NCBI RefSeq assembly: GCF_016097555.1
Contig: NC_054706.1
Span: forward strand, 51,753,663-51,817,662
DNA from: Gigantopelta aegis
Taxonomy: Eukaryota; Mollusca; Gastropoda; Neomphalida; Peltospiridae
Direction of reading: 5' to 3'
DNA length: 64,000 nt
Positions 21,258 to 34,150 of this stretch are shown in pieces. The notes under the pieces were generated by a model. That model was not told the DNA's origin and did no database searches. It saw nothing but the letters and a program-made list of their open reading frames with translations. How positions within the stretch are numbered: the first letter of the stretch is position 1; the number at the start of each line of letters is the position of its first letter. A program made the translations under genes and the position numbers.

Positions 21258-21556
21258 CCATATCTTCATCCATATCCATAAATACATCGTACGACTCGCA
21301 ATTATTCCATATCTTCTTCAATATCCATGAATACATAGTACGACTCGCGATTATTCCATATCTACATCCATATCCATGAATACATCGTACGACTCTCGAT
21401 TATCCCATATCTACATCCATATCCATCAATATATCGTACGACTCATGATTATTCCATATCTACATCCATATCCATCAATATATCGTACGACTCGTGATTA
21501 TTCCATATCTTCATCAATATCCATGAATACATCGTACGACTCACGATTACAGTTTC
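21258..21556 (-). repeat. 49-bp minisatellite over the WDR45 stop codon
   Basis: CGTACGAC-anchored units begin at 21288, 21337, 21386, 21435, 21484 and 21533, each exactly 49 bases apart, with a partial unit on the left. The unit at the 5' end of the minus strand holds the last codons ([13 protein letters not shown]) and the TAA at 21498-21500. The others lie in the 3' UTR and repeat this coding text with small changes. Confidence 0.9.
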
Positions 21557-24500
21557 CATCTGTAGTGAACACATATTTGTGAAATGTTCCGTCAACGCAG
21601 GCAGCTGCAAAATATTAACCTTATAAATGAATGATGACAGTAATTTGATATAAATGAAATCTCCAAAAAACGTAAGCAAAACAAATTTGTTAAGAATCAT
21701 ATTTAAGTAAAATAATTAAGGTTACAGTTAAGATGGGTCATTAAGCTCCCACATTAGTACTGTTATAACTGCCAAATATACAGACAGTAAAATAGTAAAA
21801 GGACCTACTCAATTTGTTTCAGGAAGGTTGACGAATTAACAACTAATATGTATTTGACTTAACAAAAGATTGCCAATCAAAAGGTCAATCCATGAAAACA
21901 AAACTGACCAGATCATTTTAACTGTCTGATATAATATGAATTAAAATTAAGTACATGTACATTTGTATTAGATGCAGGAGGAAATAATAGGTTTCTCTAC
22001 AGGACAATTGTGCTCCAAAGACCTACCTATAACAGAATGTCCATTTTCAAAGGCACAGATACAAGCACACTCGGCTGCTACTGTGAAACTGGCCAGACCC
22101 CACTGAGACTCGACATAGGGTCCTAGGAATCCCATCTTCTTAAACCTGCAAATAATATGTACTAATACTGAATTTACAATTATTTAGTAAATAATACTAC
22201 AATAGATTAACATAGAGATTCAATGTATTTTGTTACTTTAAATATTTTAAGAAGAAAAAACAAGAGTTAATCCTCTTTGCAAAAAAACAACACAAAAACA
22301 AAGAAAGACTTTCTAGGAAAACATTATGTTATTTTATGTTAAAAGTGTTCATTTAGAATAATGAACATTTACATAATTGTATAAAACCCTTCTACTCACG
22401 TAGATGTCCTGTTCAGCTTGGTGTCTTTGACAGCAAAGATGTGAATGGTTCCTTTGTCACTAGAAGCACACAAGAAAGCAGAGTCTGGGCTGAAGGAGAT
22501 GCTGCAACAAAGAAATCTCACAATAAATGAATGTTATTAGATCGTCTGTTCCAAAATATAAAATTCTTGCATTCTCAGCAGACAATAAATTGGCTGGTAT
22601 TCAAATGGTACCTCTCACTTCATTCATGAAACAACCCTGCCTCCAGTCACCTTACGGTTACCTAATTCCTGAACAGTCCCATATTCTCATTATTTTGAAG
22701 GCCAAACCAGTTCTTCATGTTGGAAAATATCAGACAAGTGACAAATCACTCACCTCATAAGCCCCAGGCGAGTGATTTGCATTCCATAGGACAAATATTG
22801 ACTAAAGCTTGCACATACTGACAAAACAAAGTTTTGAATCTAGAACACATTAAGCAATCACTGAGGCTGGCTGAGGTTAAAGTAGCTTCTTTTCAAACAA
22901 CCGTCGGGAGGTGTGCTGTTACAATATATTTTAGGTTGATGATAAAAAAAAAAAATCCGAGATTAAATACGGTGTGCTTTGGCGCGCAGGTGTGATTGCA
23001 CATCTTAGGCATGAAGGACTGTTGAACAATTTTCTGTTTGAACAAAGCACAGTGTGAAGACTAGTTCAGAGCATTTTGGAAGTTGTAGCATGTAGATAAT
23101 ATATATAAAACACAAGCTACTTACCAGTATAGCAGAGCTGGATCAGCACCCCGTCGTAACTCTACAACCAACTTCTTTGTTGTCAGATCAAACACACGAA
23201 TCAGGGTGCCCTGCAGACATCAAACAAATGTAGAAACTATAGATCTACGTCATTCTACTGTTAAAATGAAATACATAATATTAAGTGTTAATAAAAATAT
23301 CTAAGTATTAAGTTTAATTTCGTTTTTTATTTTTGCAACTTAGTAACTTTCAAAACAATACTTTTAAATAACAATTTAAGTTTTAATAATATAATTCAGA
23401 CCAGAATAATATACAGTGAAACCCCTCAACACCGGACCCCCTCTAAACCGGAATCCCCTCAAAACCGGACGTTTTCCGCGGTTCCGTGATTTACACATCT
23501 TTTAACACTATACATGTATTTTACCCCTCTAAACCGGAAACCCCTCTAAACTGAACACCGGACAAACAATTCAGGTCCCAATGTGTCAACTTAGTGTAAA
23601 TCCTACCCCTGAAAACCGGACGATCAAACCGATACCAATCAATATGGCGCCCACCTGTCTGTGAACACCGATGGCTAGTGCAATATGCGCATGCTCGAGA
23701 TCGCTGTTATCAGTGTAATCACCGCTGCATACAGTACAGGTACCGCTCAGCAGGCAAGATTAGCAAGTTGACAATAAACAATTAAAAGGACTGATCGCAA
23801 GCTTTGGTATGGAGTTAACTACTTACTGTAAACACATTGATTGTGTTGTAATTATGGTTAACATTAGCGGAGTTCGGGTTTGGGTTAGATGTCTTTATTA
23901 AGTTACGAGTGTGTTTTAAGGTCTTAAATGTGATCCTTCACAAACATGTCTCATGATTTGCTTCAAAGATTGACACAAATAACAGGGAATTTAATTTGCT
24001 GCCTTCCTATTCTGTGAATGAGTTTTTTAAATGTTTGTTTAGCGAAATAAAGAGTAAGCAAAAGTATATGTTGGCTTTGCGTAGTTGAATAGATGTTACT
24101 AGTGTTTCATTTTCATGTCAATTTTCAACCCCTGAAAACCGGACACCTCTGAAAACCGGACATTTTACTTGGTCCCATGGATGTCCGGTATTGAGGGGTT
24201 TCACTGTACATTAAAAAAACAACCATACATAATAAGATATTCACTGATTCATTGTCAGGGGCGGTGCATGGCTGTACCACCTTTTATTTTATTTTATTTT
24301 TTGGGGGGGAGGGGTGTGTGTGTGTGTGGTTGGTTATATATGATGTATCTCTGAAAATGTCCTTCACTGGTGAATTTGAAAGGAGAGTCTAACAACCTCA
24401 AGCCGTACTGCTATTTTTTACACTGTGCCGCCCCTGATTGTAATAGAAAGCATAGTAGAATTTTAAAAGATGTCCATGCCATCTGATTTGGTGGCATATT

Positions 24501-26186
24501 AACAAGTTCTGTTAAAGAAATGGAAAACTGATACTACATCAAGACTAAATTCTAGCTCTTGCTATAAATGAGAAATATTACACAAACTTGCCTTTCTGGA
24601 TGCCGTTGCTAACAAAGTTCCTTTCTGATCCAGTGCAAGACATGCAAGCTCCCCCTGGTGAGCATTTATTGTTACTGGTGAAACTGTCAGATCAGGTTTG
24701 AGACTTTCCAGATCCTAATCCAGATAAATAATATAGTTTGGAGATAAGTAATATATCAAGTACATCAGCAAATAATAAACTGACATGAAAATATGGTTTT
24801 AAATCATATCAATTACAAAAAACACCAACAAATATTTTATTTAACAATGAACTTAACACACATTTTTATTTACAGTTATATGGCATCAGACATATGCTTA
24901 AGGACAAAACAGGTAATGAAAGTGGAAATCTGCTGCTACCATGCCACTGGCTACTCTTTTTTTTATAAGCAGCAAGGGATCTTTTATATGCTTCATCCAA
25001 CAGACAGGATAGTACATACCACAACCTGTTACCCCAATTATGAAACAAAATATAGCCCAATGGGCACACTGACAGGGATCAACACTAGATTGGATGCAGA
25101 TATGGCAAGCAATTTAAAACAGGGTTATGTCCCCCACACTTAAACTGAATGTTATATATTTCATGGCTATAAATATTATAGGCACAAGAACACCATTTGG
25201 GATGACCGACCTCGGTGGCATAGTGGTTAGGCCATCGGTCTACAGGCTGGTAGGTACTGGGTTCGGATCCCAGTCGAGGCATGGGATTTTTAATCCAGAT
25301 ACCGACTCCGAACCCCAAGTGAGTGCTCCGCAAGGCTCAATGGGTAGGTGAAAACCACTTGCACCGACCAGTGATCCATAACTGGTTCAACAAAGGCCAT
25401 GGTTTGTGCTATCCTGCCTATGGGAAGCGCAAATAAAAGATCCCTTGCTGCTAATCAGAAAGAGTTGCCCACGTAATGGCGGCAGCGGGTTTCCTCTTAA
25501 AATATGTGTGGTCCTTAACCATATAACCGTAAATAAAATGTGATGAGTGCGTCATTAAATAAAACATTTCTTTCTTTCCATTTGGGATGGTAAATAATTT
25601 AATCCAGCAAGCAGACATCACCAATCATGAAAATGATAAATTATTTACAAGTATGACTTATAAAAAGATAAATCTGAATTAATTATAGATGTTATATTCC
25701 ACTTACAACAATTTGTACACTTCCACATTTGGGTCCTGGAAAAACCAAAGTTCTTGCAAATGTGCTCACTTCTGTCAGACCTACAAAAATATATTTTAAC
25801 ACTGTTAAATTTCAACTATCATTTTATTTGTAAATCTAAATAATATAAACATACATAATGGTTGAATCCTGGAGCATACATGTGTAACTCTCATTTTAGT
25901 TATTTCTTCAAGACAAAATACATAATATTTAAAACACCAAAAACCAATCTATAAGAATATTACGAAAATACATATACTATGAATGAAAAGGCCAGAAATA
26001 ATCTATGGGATAGGCCTAATATTTCTTTCATTTTTTTCCAGTACAAAATTCACACTTTCTGAAGAATGAGTCTAAACTGTCAAGATAATTAATTTTAAAT
26101 ATTAAATAATAATAATGTCAACCTCAATTATTTTCAGCATGCATTTATGGGTGCTTGTATACTCAATGCACCTTTGAAATTGTGGG

Positions 26187-26221
<35 letters not shown>

Positions 26222-29200
26222 CGTGAGTGGGTTCCTTTACTAAATGCAACGTTCATGTTTCATAAACCATCACGTTATTTGATTTACTTAATAATAACAT
26301 CAACAAAAAGATAATGTCTACTACTTGGAAATAAATGATTAAATGTTGATCGCAGAATTCAAATTTTTTTCACACATCACAAACCTTTTGGGTTATCTCG
26401 AGTCTCAAAACCATACAGCTTTTGAGGGTTGTTAGGAAAAGAGAACACATGCACCTGGTTTCTTAAAACCACAATCAACCTGAAAAACATAAACATTTTC
26501 ACTCACTGCAATTAAACATAATTTAAGATATAAATAATTTTTAAACAGCAATGCACACCCATCTTGTCCAAACACAACTATCTTTTTAAGTGTATCAGTC
26601 AGGCTGTGAAAACCACAACTAAATCCGACTTGGAAACATTGCTTTATCAGTAGGTCATCTTTATATACTGCTTAAAATACATTGATATACAAGATACTAT
26701 AAAGTCACTCTTTGCAGAAAGGAAATAGTCATACATTATGTCGGGTTCTACTTGCAGTATCTACATTATTATTTTAAACCTTTTTGTGTCTGTGCTGGAA
26801 TGGCGTCACTGACTGAACCTTTTCGTAATGTCAATCTTAGTGATTTCCCTAGAATATTGGCAAGGCATGGTAGACCAGACACTTTTGGGGCATTTTCACC
26901 ATTTTCAGGGCACTTGTATTTCATTAAAAATACACAAAAATTAATTGAAATAAACATTAAAATAATTTATGTGCTTGCTTTAATAAATGAATGGCCAAAG
27001 ATATAAAAGGCATATTTTATTAATTAATAATACCTTTTTTGGTATTTTATAAAGGCAGTTTTAGATTTAATTACTAAAAAAGGCTTGTTTAATCTCAGGA
27101 CAGCATGGCGCTAATTAAGGCAAGATGGTGCTAGGCTATTGAGGCATGGTGCTGCACCATGCTAAAACAAGCTAGGGAAAACACTGATTGAAGATTGAAT
27201 CTTTTAGCAGCACACAGTGTACCTTCATGTCCACAGTGTAATTAAATTGACAGCACACTGTGTGCCACTGCACTGTAAAAAGGTTAAGCGATCTTATTAG
27301 CCAACCATACATAGTTGCCTGATTGAATCTTAAAAACCAACAGACCTTTTTTCTTTTATTATTTTTTCAACTTAATACATACTGACCTATTCACTTCCAA
27401 AATGGTGTCTGTTACAAATCATTGCAAACCATTCTTTTGAATGAATTATGTAATACGCCCACACATATACCTGTCTCTTTGGACTCGGACCGCTACTACT
27501 GGCTGGGCAAATGTTATATCCATCACAACTTTCTGTGCAGGATTCCTCTGACAGTTATCCCATATTAACACTAGAAAACAACAATAAAATAAGTTATATT
27601 AACAAGCTGCATTCAAAGAAATCCTGACTGGCCATTTCATAAAATACCTGTACAAAATTCAACTAAACATGCATATGTGGTCCATTAAGCATCAACTTGC
27701 CCTGAGAGGTAAAGTAGTGCTCTTCTTATTGTCTGAACCAAATTGTTAACAACTACAAAAAATTACTCTCTTACCTTTAATTGCCATTAGATTTCCTCCA
27801 AAGTTTGTCCAGACACAAATCGCAAAAAAACCACTACAAATATACAGATTCCACACACGAGACTGCAACGATGTTGCCGATATTGTCTTTGCTGAGATTG
27901 CATAGGGAAAAATACATGCAGTTTTCTGCCGTCTGCCACGTTGCTTGTTTATGGAATACTCTTCAAGAGGGTTTAAAGCCTCCAAAGTATGTGACACAAT
28001 TACTGTGAAATCGATGATCTCTAGTGGTATCATTAAAATAATAATAATAATAATAATAAAAAATAATAATAATAAGACGTCATCACGTTTGCTTTTATAT
28101 CATAACATGTTATGACGTTGTTAGATTAAGTCCTATCCTTTCACCCCTATTGAAGAATATTCCATAAAAAGTCAAAATGGCAGCTGATACAAAATTACAT
28201 GCTTTTTTCCCTATGCGCGCTCAGCGATGTCGATATAGGTGACATGGTTATCATCTGGTATGTGGAATCTGTGTCATTGTAATGTTTTTTTCAAGATTTG
28301 TGTCTGGACAAACTTTGGAGGAAATCTAACGGCAATTAAAGGTAGGAGAGTAATTTTTCGTAGTTGTTAACAATTTGGTTCGGACAATAGGCACTGAATG
28401 GTTCATTTGACCAATTAATCCTGTACAAGTTCCAGGTTGCATAGTACCAAAGAAGAGAGTTCCGTGTCAAAGTTCGAGGTGCACTGTCAAATATTTACAG
28501 AGTAAAAGCAGCTGTGAGTGTGATTGGTAGTAATATGTGACATTGATTATTTGTACAAATACTATTATCCATTGACAATAAATAAATACACTTTTATTTG
28601 TTATACAGTTGTTATGCAATATATATCAGAGGTTGAAACTAATGCGGGGTACCCCCAAAAATGGAACTGCAATTTTCAGCAAAAATGACGGTTGCTGTTA
28701 AAAACATTAATTAGATCTCTTAAATGTTATGTGACCCCCCCATTTTCTTGCAGGTAGATTAGATGTGAGGTGCCACACTTTTTATTGCTGTACTTCCTGG
28801 GTGTGTTGATACACTGCTTATATCAGTTTTATTAGTAAATGTTAACATTATCGGCAATAGGAATTGATTTGTTCAAGTACAACCAAATGATTTATAGAGT
28901 TAGTTCCCTTCATGTTACGTGGTTCTTAGTACACAAATGAAGTTAATGGTTCAATTTAGGTTACCTTTTATTCGTTTCAGCAGATGACAATAATATATTA
29001 ATTTCATACTCAACTGATATTTGTTATTAAAATTACAATTCAGAAGTGTACCTCAAAAAGAGTATATTGTTAGAAGCAGTACACAGATTTAAAAAAATGA
29101 AGATCCCCATATCACAATGCACTTTAGTCAATTATTAGTTGATCACTGACTGGTTGGTGCAAACCAGGGCCTCTAGATTATGGTAGCCGCACTCTCATGG

Positions 29201-32200
29201 CTAGTGATATTCAGTGTTGGGCTAGTAAATAATTACTATTGCCATGGGCTAGTGAAATGTTTTCGGTCAAATGTTGCAGTTATGTTTATTTTGTAAATAT
29301 GAATATCATAACCCCACCCCAACCCCCAATGTTAGTGTTTTTAAGTTCTATCTCCCTCTTTAGGTGACATATCTGATTATTATTATTTAGTAAAATTGTA
29401 TTAACTTAAATTAAAGTAGGGCTAGTGAATTTTTAATCATGGCTAGTAAATTTTTAAAATCATGATGAATGATAACAAAATTTCCACCAATTCTGAACAC
29501 TAAAGCAGCTTCATCAATATTCATATTACCGTATTCGAGGTGAGAGGTCAAGACTGAATCTCTGCACAATGCAGTTGAATGGGCATTTGGCAAAATAGTT
29601 GTTGATTCCATGAATCTATCTAGTGCCTCATCTATAGGACAGCTACTTCCAAACACACTCTTTACTGGACAATACATCCTTTTGATTGCCAAAAGGAGGA
29701 CTGCCACTCCCAGAGTAGTTTACTAAATCAAATCATGCACGGAACAGAGGGAGACCACTCTATAGTCCGAAGGTTCAATAGTCCGAAGGTTCAATGGTCC
29801 GGGGTTAGGTCTATAAACCGTCGGACTACTGAACCCTCAGATTACTGAACCTAGAGTTAGGGTTAGTGTTGAACCTTCGGACTACTGAACCTTCAGACTA
29901 CAGAGCTGTAACCGAACAGAGCTCATTGGAATAAATACAGCTGTGCTGACATGACTTAAGAGGTCACTGTGTGATACTTTGTTTGGTAGCTCCTACAATG
30001 TTTTATTATTGTAGTAGGGTTAGTGTTGAACCTTCGGACTACTGAACCTTCAGACTATAGAGCTGTAACCAAACAGAGCTCATTGGAATAAATACAGCTG
30101 TGCTGACATGACTTAAGAGGTCACTGTGTGATACTTTGTTTGGTAGCTACTACAATGTTTTATTATTGTAGTAGGGTTAGTGTTGAACCTTCGGACTACT
30201 GAACCTTCAGACTATAGAGCTGTAACCGAAACAGAGCTCATTGGAATAAATACAGCTGTGCTGACATGACTTAAGAGGTCACTGTGTGATACTTTGTTTG
30301 GTAGCTACTACAATGTTTTATTATTGTAGTAGGGTTAGTGTTGAACCTTCGGACTACTGAACCTTCAGACTACAGAGCTGTAACCGAACAGAGCTCATTG
30401 GAATAAATACAGCTGTGCTGACATGACTTAAGAGGTCACTGTGTGATACTTTGTTTGGTAGCTACTACAATGTTTTATTATTGTAGTAGGGTTAGTGTTG
30501 AACCTTCGGACTACTGAACCTTCAGACTATAGAGCTGTATCCAAACAGAGCTCATTGGAATAAATACAGCTGTGCTGACATGACTTAAGAGGTCACTGTG
30601 TGATACTTTGTTTGGTAGCTACTACAATGTTTTATTATTGTAGTAGGGTTAGTGTTGAACCTTCGGACTACTGAACCTTCAGACTATAGAGCTGTAACCA
30701 AACAGAGCTCATTGGAATAAATACAGCTGTGCTGACATGACTTAAGAGGTCACTGTGTGATACTTTGTTTGGTAGCTACTACAATGTTTTATTATTGTAG
30801 TAGGGTTAGTGTTGAACCTTCGGACTACTGAACTACTGAACCTTCAGACTATAGAGCTGTAACCAAACAGAGCTCATTGGAATAAATACAGCTGTGCTGA
30901 CATGACTTAAGAGGTCACTGTGTGATACTTTGTTTGGTAGCTACTACAATGTTTTATTATTGTAGTAGGGTTAGTGTTGAACCTTCGGACTACTGAACCT
31001 TCAGACTACAGAGCTGTAACCAAACAGAGCTCATTGGAATAAATACAGCTGTGCTGACATGACTTAAGAGGTCACTGTGTGATACTTTGTTTGGTAGCTA
31101 CTACAATGTTTTATTATTGTAGTAGGGTTAGTGTTGAACCTTCGGACTACTGAACCTTCAGACTACAGAGCTGTAACCAAACAGAGCTCATTGGAATAAA
31201 TACAGCTGTGCTGACATGACTTAAGAGGTAACTGTGTGATACTTTGTTTGGTAGCTACTACAATGTTTTATTATTGTAGTAGGGTTAGTGTTGAACCTTT
31301 GGACTACTGAACCTTCAGACTATAGAGCTGTAACCAAACAGAGCTCATTGGAATAAATACAGCTGTGCTGACATGACTTAAGAGGTCACTGTGTGATACT
31401 TTGTTTGGTAGCTACTACAATGTTTTATTATTGTAGTAGGGTTAGTGTTGAACCTTCGGACTACTGAACCTTCAAACTATAGAGCTGTAACCAAACAGAG
31501 CTCATTGGAATAAATACAGCTGTGCTGACATGACTTAAGAGGTCACTGTGTGATACTTTGTTTGGTAGCTACTACAATGTTTTATTATTGTAGTAGGGTT
31601 AGTGTTGAACCTTCGGACTTTCTAAAAGGTAATGAGTCTGGATTCAAACAAAATATAATTTGTATGGTGTTAAAAGTCCTGTAAAAATATTTTCCCCATT
31701 ACATAATACTTACCAGCTTTCTCGTCAAACTTGGGTGTGTTGCCGCCTCCTACTAGAGCTATCAGATTACTGCGGAACAGCATCTCTGCACTTGCCAAAC
31801 TGCCAACAGAGTCCACACCTAATAGAGAAATACACACTAGAGCTATCAGATTACTGGGGAACAGCATCTCTGCACTTGCCAAACTGCCAACAGAGTCCAC
31901 ACCTAATAGAGAAATACACACTAGAGCTATCAAATTACTGCGGAACAGCATCTCTGCACTTGCCAAACTGCCAACAGAGTCCACACCTAATAGAGAAATA
32001 CACACTTTTCAGTTCCACTTATTTACGTACTTATATCCAATTAAGGTTAAAAGGCGAGACGTAGCCCAGTGGTAAAGTGCTCGCTTGATGCGCGATCGGT
32101 TTGGGATTGATCCCCATCGGTGGGCCCATTGGGCTATTTCTTACTCTGGTCAGTGCCCCACAACTGGTATATCAAAGGCCGTGGTATGTGCTATCCTGTC

Positions 32201-34150
32201 TATGGGATAGTGCATACAAAAGATCCCTTGCTGCTAATCGAAAAGAGTAGCCCATGAAGTGGCGACAGTGGGTTTCCTCCCTCAATATCTGTGTGGTCCT
32301 TAACCATATGTCCTACGCTATATAACTGTAAATAAAATGTGTTGAGTGCATCATTAAATAAACCATTTCCTTCCTTCCTTCCAATTAAGGTTCAAGCACA
32401 CTGTCCTTGGCACACACCTCAGCTATATGGGCTGTCTGTCCAGAACAGTGGGTTAGTTGTTAGTTATAAAGACGTTGTAATGGTCTTACACCTACCCATT
32501 GAGTCGTTAAAACTCGCTCTGGGTGGAAGCCGGTACCGGACTATGAACCCACTACCTACCAGCCTTATGTCCGATAGCTTAACCACGACACCACTGAGGC
32601 CGGTAATACATACAGATTACCTTCCACCTGAACAAAGTCTGAATTTCTTCATTCTTTGAGTACATTTAAGCTAGTAGAGTACTACAATTTTCAATGTAAC
32701 TTTTATACATTTTGTGGAACATACATACATTTATATAGTCATGTTAGTGCGAACATTAATTTGAATATCTGTAAAAAAAACTACCCAAAAAAACAAGAAC
32801 AACATTTTTTATGTATGTATGCATATGTTTGTCTGTCTGTATGTATTGTGTATCATATATTCATGCAAGAAAATATGCTCCATCTACCCATTCATCCCCC
32901 TATTCAAATGTTTCACAATTTGTTTTGGGGTTAATGCCCATTTTCAATAATACTAATTTCATAACCATTAGTAAATTTAACAAGCCACAACGTATATAAC
33001 TTACCCAGATAGAGCTTCTGTGTGAGTGGTTCCACATTGTAAATCTTCAATCCAGAATTTGAGGCACAAGTAAAACAACCTAAAATTTAAAACAATATTT
33101 GTATAGCAATATTAAAGTTAAATAAATAGAGGATTTGTCAACAGAGTTTTTTAATTAATCCTATAACACTTCTAAAATAACATTTTAATTCAATTTGTAG
33201 TAAATCACAGTACTAAAGTCGCATCAACTGGTAATGATGTTATCACAATTAGCATAAAGTACTTTAACGTCAGACATTTTAACTAAATCTTATGAAAACA
33301 TTATGCTCAGGTATATAAGTGTTGTTGGCTTGTAAACAAATGACCCATTGACAGCAATACATTATCATCTAGAGACCTTGCAAATTTGCATATACCTTTA
33401 AATATGCATACCATTATTACAAGGGTTACTTAATACACTAAATTACCACATGGGTTTATGACATAGATATCATGAATAAGTTATAGGATAAAGATAATAT
33501 ATGTCAGTAATCAAAATTGACAAAGATGCTCCAAATAAATGTGAGGTGCAAAATAATAATAAAATGTGATGTTTTAGGTGATGATGAAAAATACATAGAT
33601 AAAATTAAAATGGAGCAATTTTGTGATTTCAAGCCAACAGACATTTCAAAGAATAGTTTCTGTTTTACTATGATATATGATAATTTGCATTATGAGGATT
33701 ATTTAAAGGTATTTGTATTTAATTGCATTTATTTTGGCTCCCAGTATACATAATAGAGTACCAATCAACTAAATTGTAATAAAAAAAGTACTTTTTTTTT
33801 TAACACATTAAATGTTCCTACATAATATATTTATATGGATAAACTTAGTTTCCAGCCAGCAGACACCAAACCACTTAATACACACCCAGGGCTAGCTCTG
33901 GCACTTGCCAAATTCGGCAATTGTGAATTTAAAAAACACTTGGCAAATTTTATTTTTATTTGGCAAAATAATTTTATGAAATAATTGACATTTTGTTAGA
34001 AAATATCTGGGTTTGTGCAATTTTTAAGTTTAGTAGATAATTTGGTGAAATTGTCTGCTCACCCAGAGCTAGTCCTGACACCCCTTGTAAACCTGAATAC
34101 ATACTATGATCTTGATTAAACCGGAGACTGTTAATGCTTCTGGTAGACAT
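21498..34150 (-). CDS. WDR45: WDR45 (WIPI4), PROPPIN autophagy beta-propeller
   Basis: Eleven coding exons on the minus strand join in phase, in transcript order: 34150-34105, 33079-33005, 31818-31714, 27570-27471, 26479-26385, 25780-25707, 24714-24592, 23210-23125, 22501-22400, 22145-22027 and 21604-21498. The product is 343 residues (human WIPI4 is about 360). It opens [16 protein letters not shown] and ends in an acidic tail (DIDEDME). The PROPPIN signature LRRG is at about 224-227; in this family it binds PI3P and PI(3,5)P2. Stretches such as [20 protein letters not shown] and [11 protein letters not shown] match WDR45 rather than WDR45B. By family knowledge it works with ATG2 in lipid transfer to growing autophagosomes. 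The start ATG lies in an exon with a short 5' UTR, and upstream UTR exons were not found. Oddities are one GC-AG intron, an in-frame triplicated exon segment and a minisatellite at the stop codon; each has its own entry. Confidence 0.95.
23414..24206. mobile_element. pogo/Tigger-like non-autonomous element
   Basis: The ends are CAGTGAAACCCCTCAA and its inverse, inside TA dinucleotides at 23412-23413 and 24207-24208. Near each end the motif AAACCGGA recurs. CAGT-type ends and TA targets fit the pogo/Tigger branch of Tc1-mariner. No transposase frame is seen in its 793 bases. It lies in a WDR45 intron. Confidence 0.75.
24256..24436. mobile_element. Short MITE with CAGGGGCGG ends and 5-bp duplication
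   Basis: CAGGGGCGGTGC and the matching inverse at the right end are flanked by ATTGT on both sides (24251-24255 and 24437-24441). The size is 181 bp. Confidence 0.7.
24590..24591 (-). promoter_or_regulatory. Non-canonical GC splice donor in WDR45
   Basis: The exon 24714-24592 ends AAG followed by GCAAGT. The next exon must start at 23210 (GGCACCCTG) to keep the conserved ASRKGTLIR reading. Only a GC-AG intron fits; AAG|GCAAGT is the usual form of such donors. Confidence 0.8.
24826..25095 (-). mobile_element. SINE family A, old copy
   Basis: In reverse the tail, the AAAAGATCCCTTGCTGC core and the region near GGGCTATATTTTG are clear, but the head is degraded. It lies in a WDR45 intron. Confidence 0.65.
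25205..25577 (+). mobile_element. SINE family B with 12-bp target duplication
   Basis: CCATTTGGGATG occurs at 25193-25204 and 25578-25589. Head, body and tail are complete. It lies in the WDR45 intron between exons 24714 and 25707, against the gene. Confidence 0.9.
26191..26221. repeat. Poly(T) run
   Basis: A tract of about 31 T in the WDR45 intron between exons 25780 and 26385. On the gene strand it is poly(A). Confidence 0.9.
26843..27186 (-). repeat. CCCTAGCTTGTTTTAGCATGG repeat, copy 2
   Basis: It has short inverted TTCCCTAG ends and the GGTGCTGCACCATGC palindrome near one end. It lies in the WDR45 intron between exons 26479 and 27471. Confidence 0.7.
27727..28389. mobile_element. Foldback element with 95-bp inverted arms
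   Basis: Arms 27727-27821 and 28295-28389 are of equal length and differ at only a few positions. The middle contains an (AAT)n run near 28033 and no supported gene. No clear target duplication is seen. It lies in a WDR45 intron. Confidence 0.8.
29165..29460 (+). repeat. CAGGGCTTCTAGA-family copy in WDR45 intron
   Basis: The left end is intact (CAGGGCCTCTAGATTATGG) and the right end is truncated after the TAGTAAATTTTTAAAATCA segment. Confidence 0.65.
29411..29707 (-). other. Unrecognised 98-codon open frame in a WDR45 intron
   Basis: The minus-strand frame reads [18 protein letters not shown] and later [16 protein letters not shown], which looks protein-like in composition, but I know no match. 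It overlaps the end of a repeat at 29460 and borders the satellite. It may be a decayed element or chance. Confidence 0.2.
29861..31618. repeat. 157-bp satellite, about 11 copies
   Basis: GGTTAGTGTTGAACC anchors recur at 29861, 30018, 30175, 30333 and on to 31597. Copies are about 97-99% alike. One copy carries a small extra CTGAACTA. Each unit has a hairpin, CTACTACAAT...ATTGTAGTAG. The 100 bases to the left hold degenerate half-units. The array lies in the WDR45 intron between exons 27570 and 31714. Confidence 0.95.
31714..31818 (-). CDS. WDR45: WDR45 coding exon 3, minimal form
   Basis: This exon codes blade-1 residues from about 41 to 75 ([19 protein letters not shown] through NTPKFDEKA). 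The donor is GCTG|GTAAGT at 31,713. The acceptor is TATTAG|GTGTGG at 31,819-31,820. The same acceptor and most of the exon recur two more times upstream, so two longer exon forms starting at 31,902 or 31,986 stay open and in frame. The minimal form matches the length of other WIPI4 proteins. Confidence 0.85.
31754..32005 (-). repeat. 84-bp exon-plus-acceptor segment, three head-to-tail copies
   Basis: Three exact-length units start at 31754, 31838 and 31922. They differ at only about two positions, so the duplication is recent. Each unit holds 65 bases of WDR45 exon 3, the AG acceptor and its short pyrimidine stretch. Because 84 is 28 codons and no unit contains a stop on the minus strand, an open frame runs through all three. 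Confidence 0.95.
32053..32382 (+). mobile_element. SINE family A inside a SINE family C tail
   Basis: Head GACGTAGCCCAGTGGTAAAG, B box and common tail with (CCTT)n are all present. CCAATTAAGGTT is duplicated at both sides. That target is the tail of the minus-strand SINE C at 32383-32601, so A landed in C. Confidence 0.85.
32383..32601 (-). mobile_element. SINE family C
   Basis: In reverse it reads a GGCCTCAGTGGTGTCGTGG head, then a body with CGAGTTTTAACGACTCAATG, and a tail ending GTGCTTGAACCTTAATTGG. The head is like family B, while the tail is not. Confidence 0.75.
33886..34074. repeat. Short element with CAGGGCTAGCTCTGG ends
   Basis: Left CCAGGGCTAGCTCTGG and right CCCAGAGCTAGTCCTG are inverse-related, with TTGGCAAA-rich text between. 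Related TTGCCAAATT text occurs at about 48290. Confidence 0.45.

Follow-up and report, generated by a model that had tools for sequence, protein, structure and literature searches.

Three tandem copies of the exon 3 acceptor in a WDR45/WIPI4 gene of Gigantopelta aegis and the question of which one is used

Introduction

When a conserved gene carries the same splice acceptor three times in a row, each copy in frame with its neighboring exons, the question arises which acceptor is used and how long the encoded protein is. Such an array lies in WDR45/WIPI4, a conserved gene of autophagy, within the 64-kb stretch of G. aegis DNA analyzed here, called the window in the following. Recently gained introns of known source are described as few (PMC4974935), introns have been suggested to arise through the expansion of in-frame repeats bearing AGGT, and VCX3A is presented as an intermediate of intron creation, the only polymorphic one known to its authors (PMC10809524). 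A young in-frame array of three acceptors, placed in a conserved gene, would be a good test case for intron birth. With it one could ask directly which acceptor the splicing machinery prefers when several are identical, and whether units of the repeat can be treated as introns before they are lost to selection. Should splicing use a single acceptor, the array would be a minisatellite of the ordinary kind at the border of an exon, and close to neutral.

Materials and Methods

Positions are those of the window, and slashes in short motifs mark splice boundaries or duplication breakpoints. WDR45 exons were located by local tblastn, for which a WIPI4 protein sequence served as query. Exon ends were placed by hand from splice motifs and reading frame, and the ATG at 34150 was taken as the start. 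Branch-point and donor scores were calculated from generic frequency tables, not trained for this species, with an AT-rich background; the donor matrix favors G-rich sites and gives a low score to the only GC donor among the ten of the gene. Array density in the genome was sampled in twenty 10-kb stretches, in which 2,900 of 200,000 bases are N. For control genes, the chaperonin family PF00118 (64 genome matches) was sampled in 20 stretches covering 21 of the 64 matches.

Results

Gene model and identity of WDR45

The following features define the gene and the exons next to the array:
21498..34150, minus strand: WDR45/WIPI4 from the assumed ATG at 34150 to the stop, 11 exons encoding 343 aa
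33005..33079, minus strand: exon 2, ending in phase 1
31714..31818, minus strand: exon 3, conserved-length form, 105 nt, donor CTG/GTAAGT
27471..27570, minus strand: exon 4

Joined from 34150 to 21498, the 11 exons add up to 1032 bases and encode 343 residues, the only stop being the final codon. All 11 were matched by tblastn; the weak matches are those of exon 1, with E 0.45, and of exon 6, with E 0.022. The introns are GT-AG with the sole exception of intron 7 (GC-AG; AAG/GCAAGT; 24591-23211). The product is a PROPPIN according to Pfam (PF21032, E 1.3e-24, 87.5 bits against a cut-off of 30). When exons 2 and 3 are joined at the proximal acceptor, the translation aligns without gaps to residues 20-76 of WIPI4 (8kbx_A, E 6.1e-17), which is the top PDB match, with WIPI3 and Atg18 behind. 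By eye, the exon 8 translation contains LRRG, which we take to be the PROPPIN lipid-binding motif [F/L]RRG. The domain call and the best PDB match agree with the identification as WDR45 in an earlier note on this DNA.

Structure of the 84-bp array

The array and its copies, named by their distance from the body of exon 3, are:
31754..32005, minus strand: array of 3 x 84 bp, unit of 19 intronic and 65 exonic bases
31922..32005, minus strand: distal (5'-most) copy, acceptor before 31986, original intron kept upstream, silent CTG to TTG change
31838..31921, minus strand: middle copy, acceptor before 31902, R to P change
31754..31837, minus strand: proximal copy, acceptor before 31818, continuing into the remainder of exon 3

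TRF reports positions 31752-32006 with period 84, 3.0 copies, 98% matches and a score of 496, which is far beyond chance. On the minus strand, each 84-base copy consists of GTGTGTATTTCTCTATTAG followed by 65 exon bases. The acceptor TATTAG/GTGTGG thus occurs three times, with first exon bases at 31986, 31902 and 31818, and the three do not differ in the 20 intron bases that precede the exon. Only two differences exist across the copies, so that any pair differs by 1-2: in the middle copy, R is replaced by P through a single base change (TTCCGCAGT to TTCCCCAGT), and another in the distal copy (AATCTG to AATTTG) is silent. The donor is present once, after 31714, and the duplicated block comprises the acceptor and the 5' part of exon 3. 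Since the repeated part holds 65 of the 105 exon bases and lacks the donor, the array represents a triplicated acceptor with a partial exon rather than a triplicated exon.

AGGT is found in every unit, and the unit of 84 bases is a multiple of three. Translation after splicing gave open frames for all three acceptor choices, with 0, 28 or 56 additional residues; because of the unit length and the open frame, the proximal, middle and distal acceptors add 0, 28 and 56 residues, respectively. These results reproduce what the earlier note had described, namely the coordinates and three near-identical 84-base copies, the acceptor with 65 coding bases in each, the three alternative protein lengths, and about two differences pointing to a recent origin. 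Its term of a triplicated exon, however, holds for the acceptor and 65 exon bases and not for the whole exon.

Tandem arrays elsewhere in the gene and genome

Two further arrays lie in the same gene:
21258..21549, minus strand: array of 6 x 49 bp, covering the last codons and the stop of exon 11
29858..31619, no strand assigned: array of 11 x 157 bp within intron 3, separated by about 135 bp from the array at the acceptor

Arrays thus overlap 2 of the 11 WDR45 exons. The 49-bp unit is not a multiple of three and later copies shift the frame; they lie past the first stop, so the protein is unchanged. The 157-bp array holds inner 16-bp repeats (TGAACCTTCAGACTAC), an inverted version of which is found at 29758-29794. 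By eye, a tRNA-derived SINE-like element was seen at ~32055-32390, inside intron 2 and some 50 bp upstream of the 84-bp array; it appears to resemble a family known from molluscs.

Including the 84-bp array, the window contains 11 arrays with a period of at least 20, and the 200-kb sample contains 59, which occupy 11.8% of its bases. Among the 20 chaperonin stretches, one array of this kind was found, a 34-bp array of about 5 copies (positions 1-166 of L043, G000:C7:4058650-4059100) overlapping a chaperonin match by one base; no others of period at least 20 were found there, and the arrays of shorter period, two of them in L039 and one in L054, all fall beyond the chaperonin matches. In another PROPPIN gene, located at C8:45.7 Mb, several arrays occur within 16 kb, of which none overlaps its 8 matched stretches (0/8, positions compared by hand); both control samples are too small for a rate. 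As far as these small samples allow, array birth appears to be ordinary in this genome, and what seems unusual is the survival of an array across the splice acceptor of a conserved exon.

This abundance also bears on whether the array is real. An assembly artefact at a locus that is truly single-copy would be favored by the near identity of the copies, but arrays are a normal component of this genome, as the counts in the window and in the 200-kb sample indicate. Furthermore, the two sites differing among the copies argue against a simple duplication error, and the locus lies in an 81.6-Mb record, which suggests a long-read assembly. We therefore regard an artefact as highly improbable. A search with the stretch against the assembly (1.149 Gb, 5216 contigs) returned one match, so a second haplotype copy was not seen by that search.

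Origin of the array

Most likely, the array arose by recent tandem duplication in an array-rich genome. Its breakpoints, GAAA/AGT/GTGTATT and CTCT/AGT/AGGAGG, share AGT and are joined in the array as CTCT/AGT/GTGTATT, which is as expected for duplication at short homology. In this process, the 19 terminal bases of intron 2 and the 65 initial bases of exon 3 would have been copied together, and an additional step, for which slippage or unequal exchange should suffice, would have raised the array to three copies, each carrying what looks like a complete 3' splice site. The preserved reading frame carries little weight in this context, as an in-frame open outcome is not rare in modelled duplications: of 9120 possible units for a single duplication across the exon 3 acceptor, 627 (7%) kept the frame and left it open, as did 496 of 1950 (25%) when the unit was limited to 5-30 bases of intron and 30-104 bases of exon.

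Splice signals within the array

Scored with the branch-point matrix, the best branch-point-like words are CTGAA at -23 of the distal acceptor (3.9), TTGAT at -28 of the middle one (2.9) and CTGAT at -28 of the proximal one (4.9), while the best words at the nine other WDR45 acceptors score 2.4 to 4.4. The proximal and middle words fall within former exon sequence. By eye, two AGs (ATAG, CTAG) lie between word and acceptor in the proximal and middle copies, and one (AAAAG) in the distal copy.

The junction TAG/GTGTGG is the top donor-like site in the array (7.7 by the donor matrix), and outscores 6 of the 10 native WDR45 donors, which range from 2.7 to 10.8 under the same matrix. Compared with the core GTRAGT, it has mismatches at two positions, +4 and +6. 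Among the 850 GT sites in the gene span, 15 reach its score, including the three array sites and native donors. After joining to exon 2, as would happen in recursive splicing at zero-length exons, the regenerated junction TGG/GTGTGG has a predicted donor score of 6.17, within the native range. An AG/GT junction is found at 5 of the 10 WDR45 acceptors and is thus not special in itself. The earlier note had described the stretch from one GT to the next AG as an 84-base intron-like unit, and this unit indeed contains branch-point-like and pyrimidine-rich sequence. Given these branch-point-like words and the donor-like scores of AG/GT, the unit could act as an intron.

Related loci and foreign-looking contigs

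Of the 13 genome matches to the PROPPIN family profile, a single one comes from the exons of this WDR45, so the search is insensitive to short WIPI4 pieces. When the 343-aa protein was compared by tblastn with loci L001-L034 (E up to 1), matches were obtained in L001 and L011, which hold the gene itself, in L005, L006 and L009, which hold stretches of other PROPPIN genes, and in L010, which holds a WIPI4-like gene of compact structure from contig C1169; the PROPPIN-profile loci L002-L004, L007, L008 and L012-L014 gave no match. No WDR45 retrocopy recording splicing was seen among the PROPPIN-profile loci and in the tblastn search against L001-L034.

Contig C1169 (G000:C1169) is 47.6 kb long, and the introns of its WIPI4-like gene are apparently only tens of bases. 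Closely spaced chaperonin matches were observed on the short contigs C758, C861, C950 and C1076, and C1023 has one 1-kb chaperonin match across many stops. Perhaps C1169 and similar short contigs derive from another organism in the assembly. The WIPI4-like gene on C1169, probably another organism's, lacks the repeat at the corresponding place. Together with the gap-free WIPI4 alignment, this suggests that the ancestral form of WDR45 exon 3 had no extra residues.

Discussion

Which acceptor is used?

We lean towards the view that the 343-residue protein is still made, with the longer in-frame forms as minor or tolerated isoforms. The proximal acceptor would then be reached either directly or stepwise through AG/GT. 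In favor of this count the conserved length in the WIPI4 alignment and the score of the proximal branch-point-like word. The R to P change in the middle copy also counts here, as a single event and hence as weak evidence. So does the companion 49-bp array at the 3' end of the gene, whose extra copies leave the protein unchanged. Against it count the distal acceptor, which has the native intron, a good branch-point-like word and the nearest position to the upstream donor, the larger number of AGs intervening between word and acceptor in the proximal and middle copies, and the in-frame state, which is also compatible with regular inclusion of the repeats.

Splicing tends to use the first AG past the branch point and the nearest site, rules that favor the distal acceptor and would make the form with 56 additional residues the main one. 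Constitutive use of this acceptor would yield a WIPI4 with a 56-residue near-repeat insertion before the conserved exon 3 segment, and the open frame of every copy, the native intron context and the CTGAA word at -23 are in line with it. Such an insertion, however, would interrupt a segment that aligns to WIPI4 without gaps, and would include the R to P change of the middle copy; the WIPI4-like gene on C1169, which probably belongs to another organism, does not show the repeat at this place. On balance we consider constitutive use of the distal acceptor unlikely, if a credible alternative, and keep to the 343-residue protein as the probable main product.

Is an intron being born?

In another possible interpretation, intron birth is underway, with AG/GT serving as acceptor and donor and the 84-base units being removed as introns or by recursive splicing. 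This would be in line with the rank of TAG/GTGTGG among the donor-like sites of the array and the native donors, and with published parallels (PMC4974935, PMC10809524). The donor matrix with its AT-rich background, however, inflates G-rich sites, and the final product lengths would equal those from plain acceptor choice, so that sequence evidence cannot separate the two. We judge intron birth to be distinctly unlikely. The fuller proposal, that WDR45 has been caught between repeat expansion and intron, with dual AG/GT sites, 84-base introns and a copy number still varying, appears quite improbable to us.

Comparison with known systems

In searches of the open-licence literature, mostly made without the gene name, no report of the WDR45 array was found. 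The analogy with intron birth drawn in the earlier note proved sound, as the intron gain in potato RdRp had the same duplication shape. According to PMC4974935, the duplicated unit there likewise combines an intron's 3' end with the 5' part of the exon that follows, and branch site, pyrimidine tract and AG were inherited with it. The potato case differs in having two copies and a cryptic exonic GTAAG donor, whereas WDR45 has three copies and the AG/GT of the acceptor itself as candidate donor. The potato intron is backed by RNA-seq and by relatives lacking it.

UBC and VCX3A, as presented in PMC10809524, resemble WDR45 in that AG/GT stands at a fixed place in each in-frame repeat and removal of a unit keeps the frame. 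Splicing at the repeats has been observed for UBC; in WDR45 the unit takes in the end of an intron that was already there, and its splice sites are candidates. In fission yeast, tandem 24-nt repeats also carry a proto-splice site per unit and gave rise to new introns, but the units are short, resemble nearby exons and use AGGC sites (PMC3629103). The model of Rogers 1989 and the ATP2A1 case of Hellsten 2011, both as cited in PMC4974935, have a duplicated AGGT provide the GT and AG of the new intron, as the AGGT of WDR45 would; in the Rogers model an exonic segment is duplicated, whereas the AGGT of WDR45 straddles an existing acceptor. The WDR45 array thus joins two published layouts, a duplication crossing an intron-exon boundary and repeats with dual-specific AGGT sites, and is of a kind that is already known.
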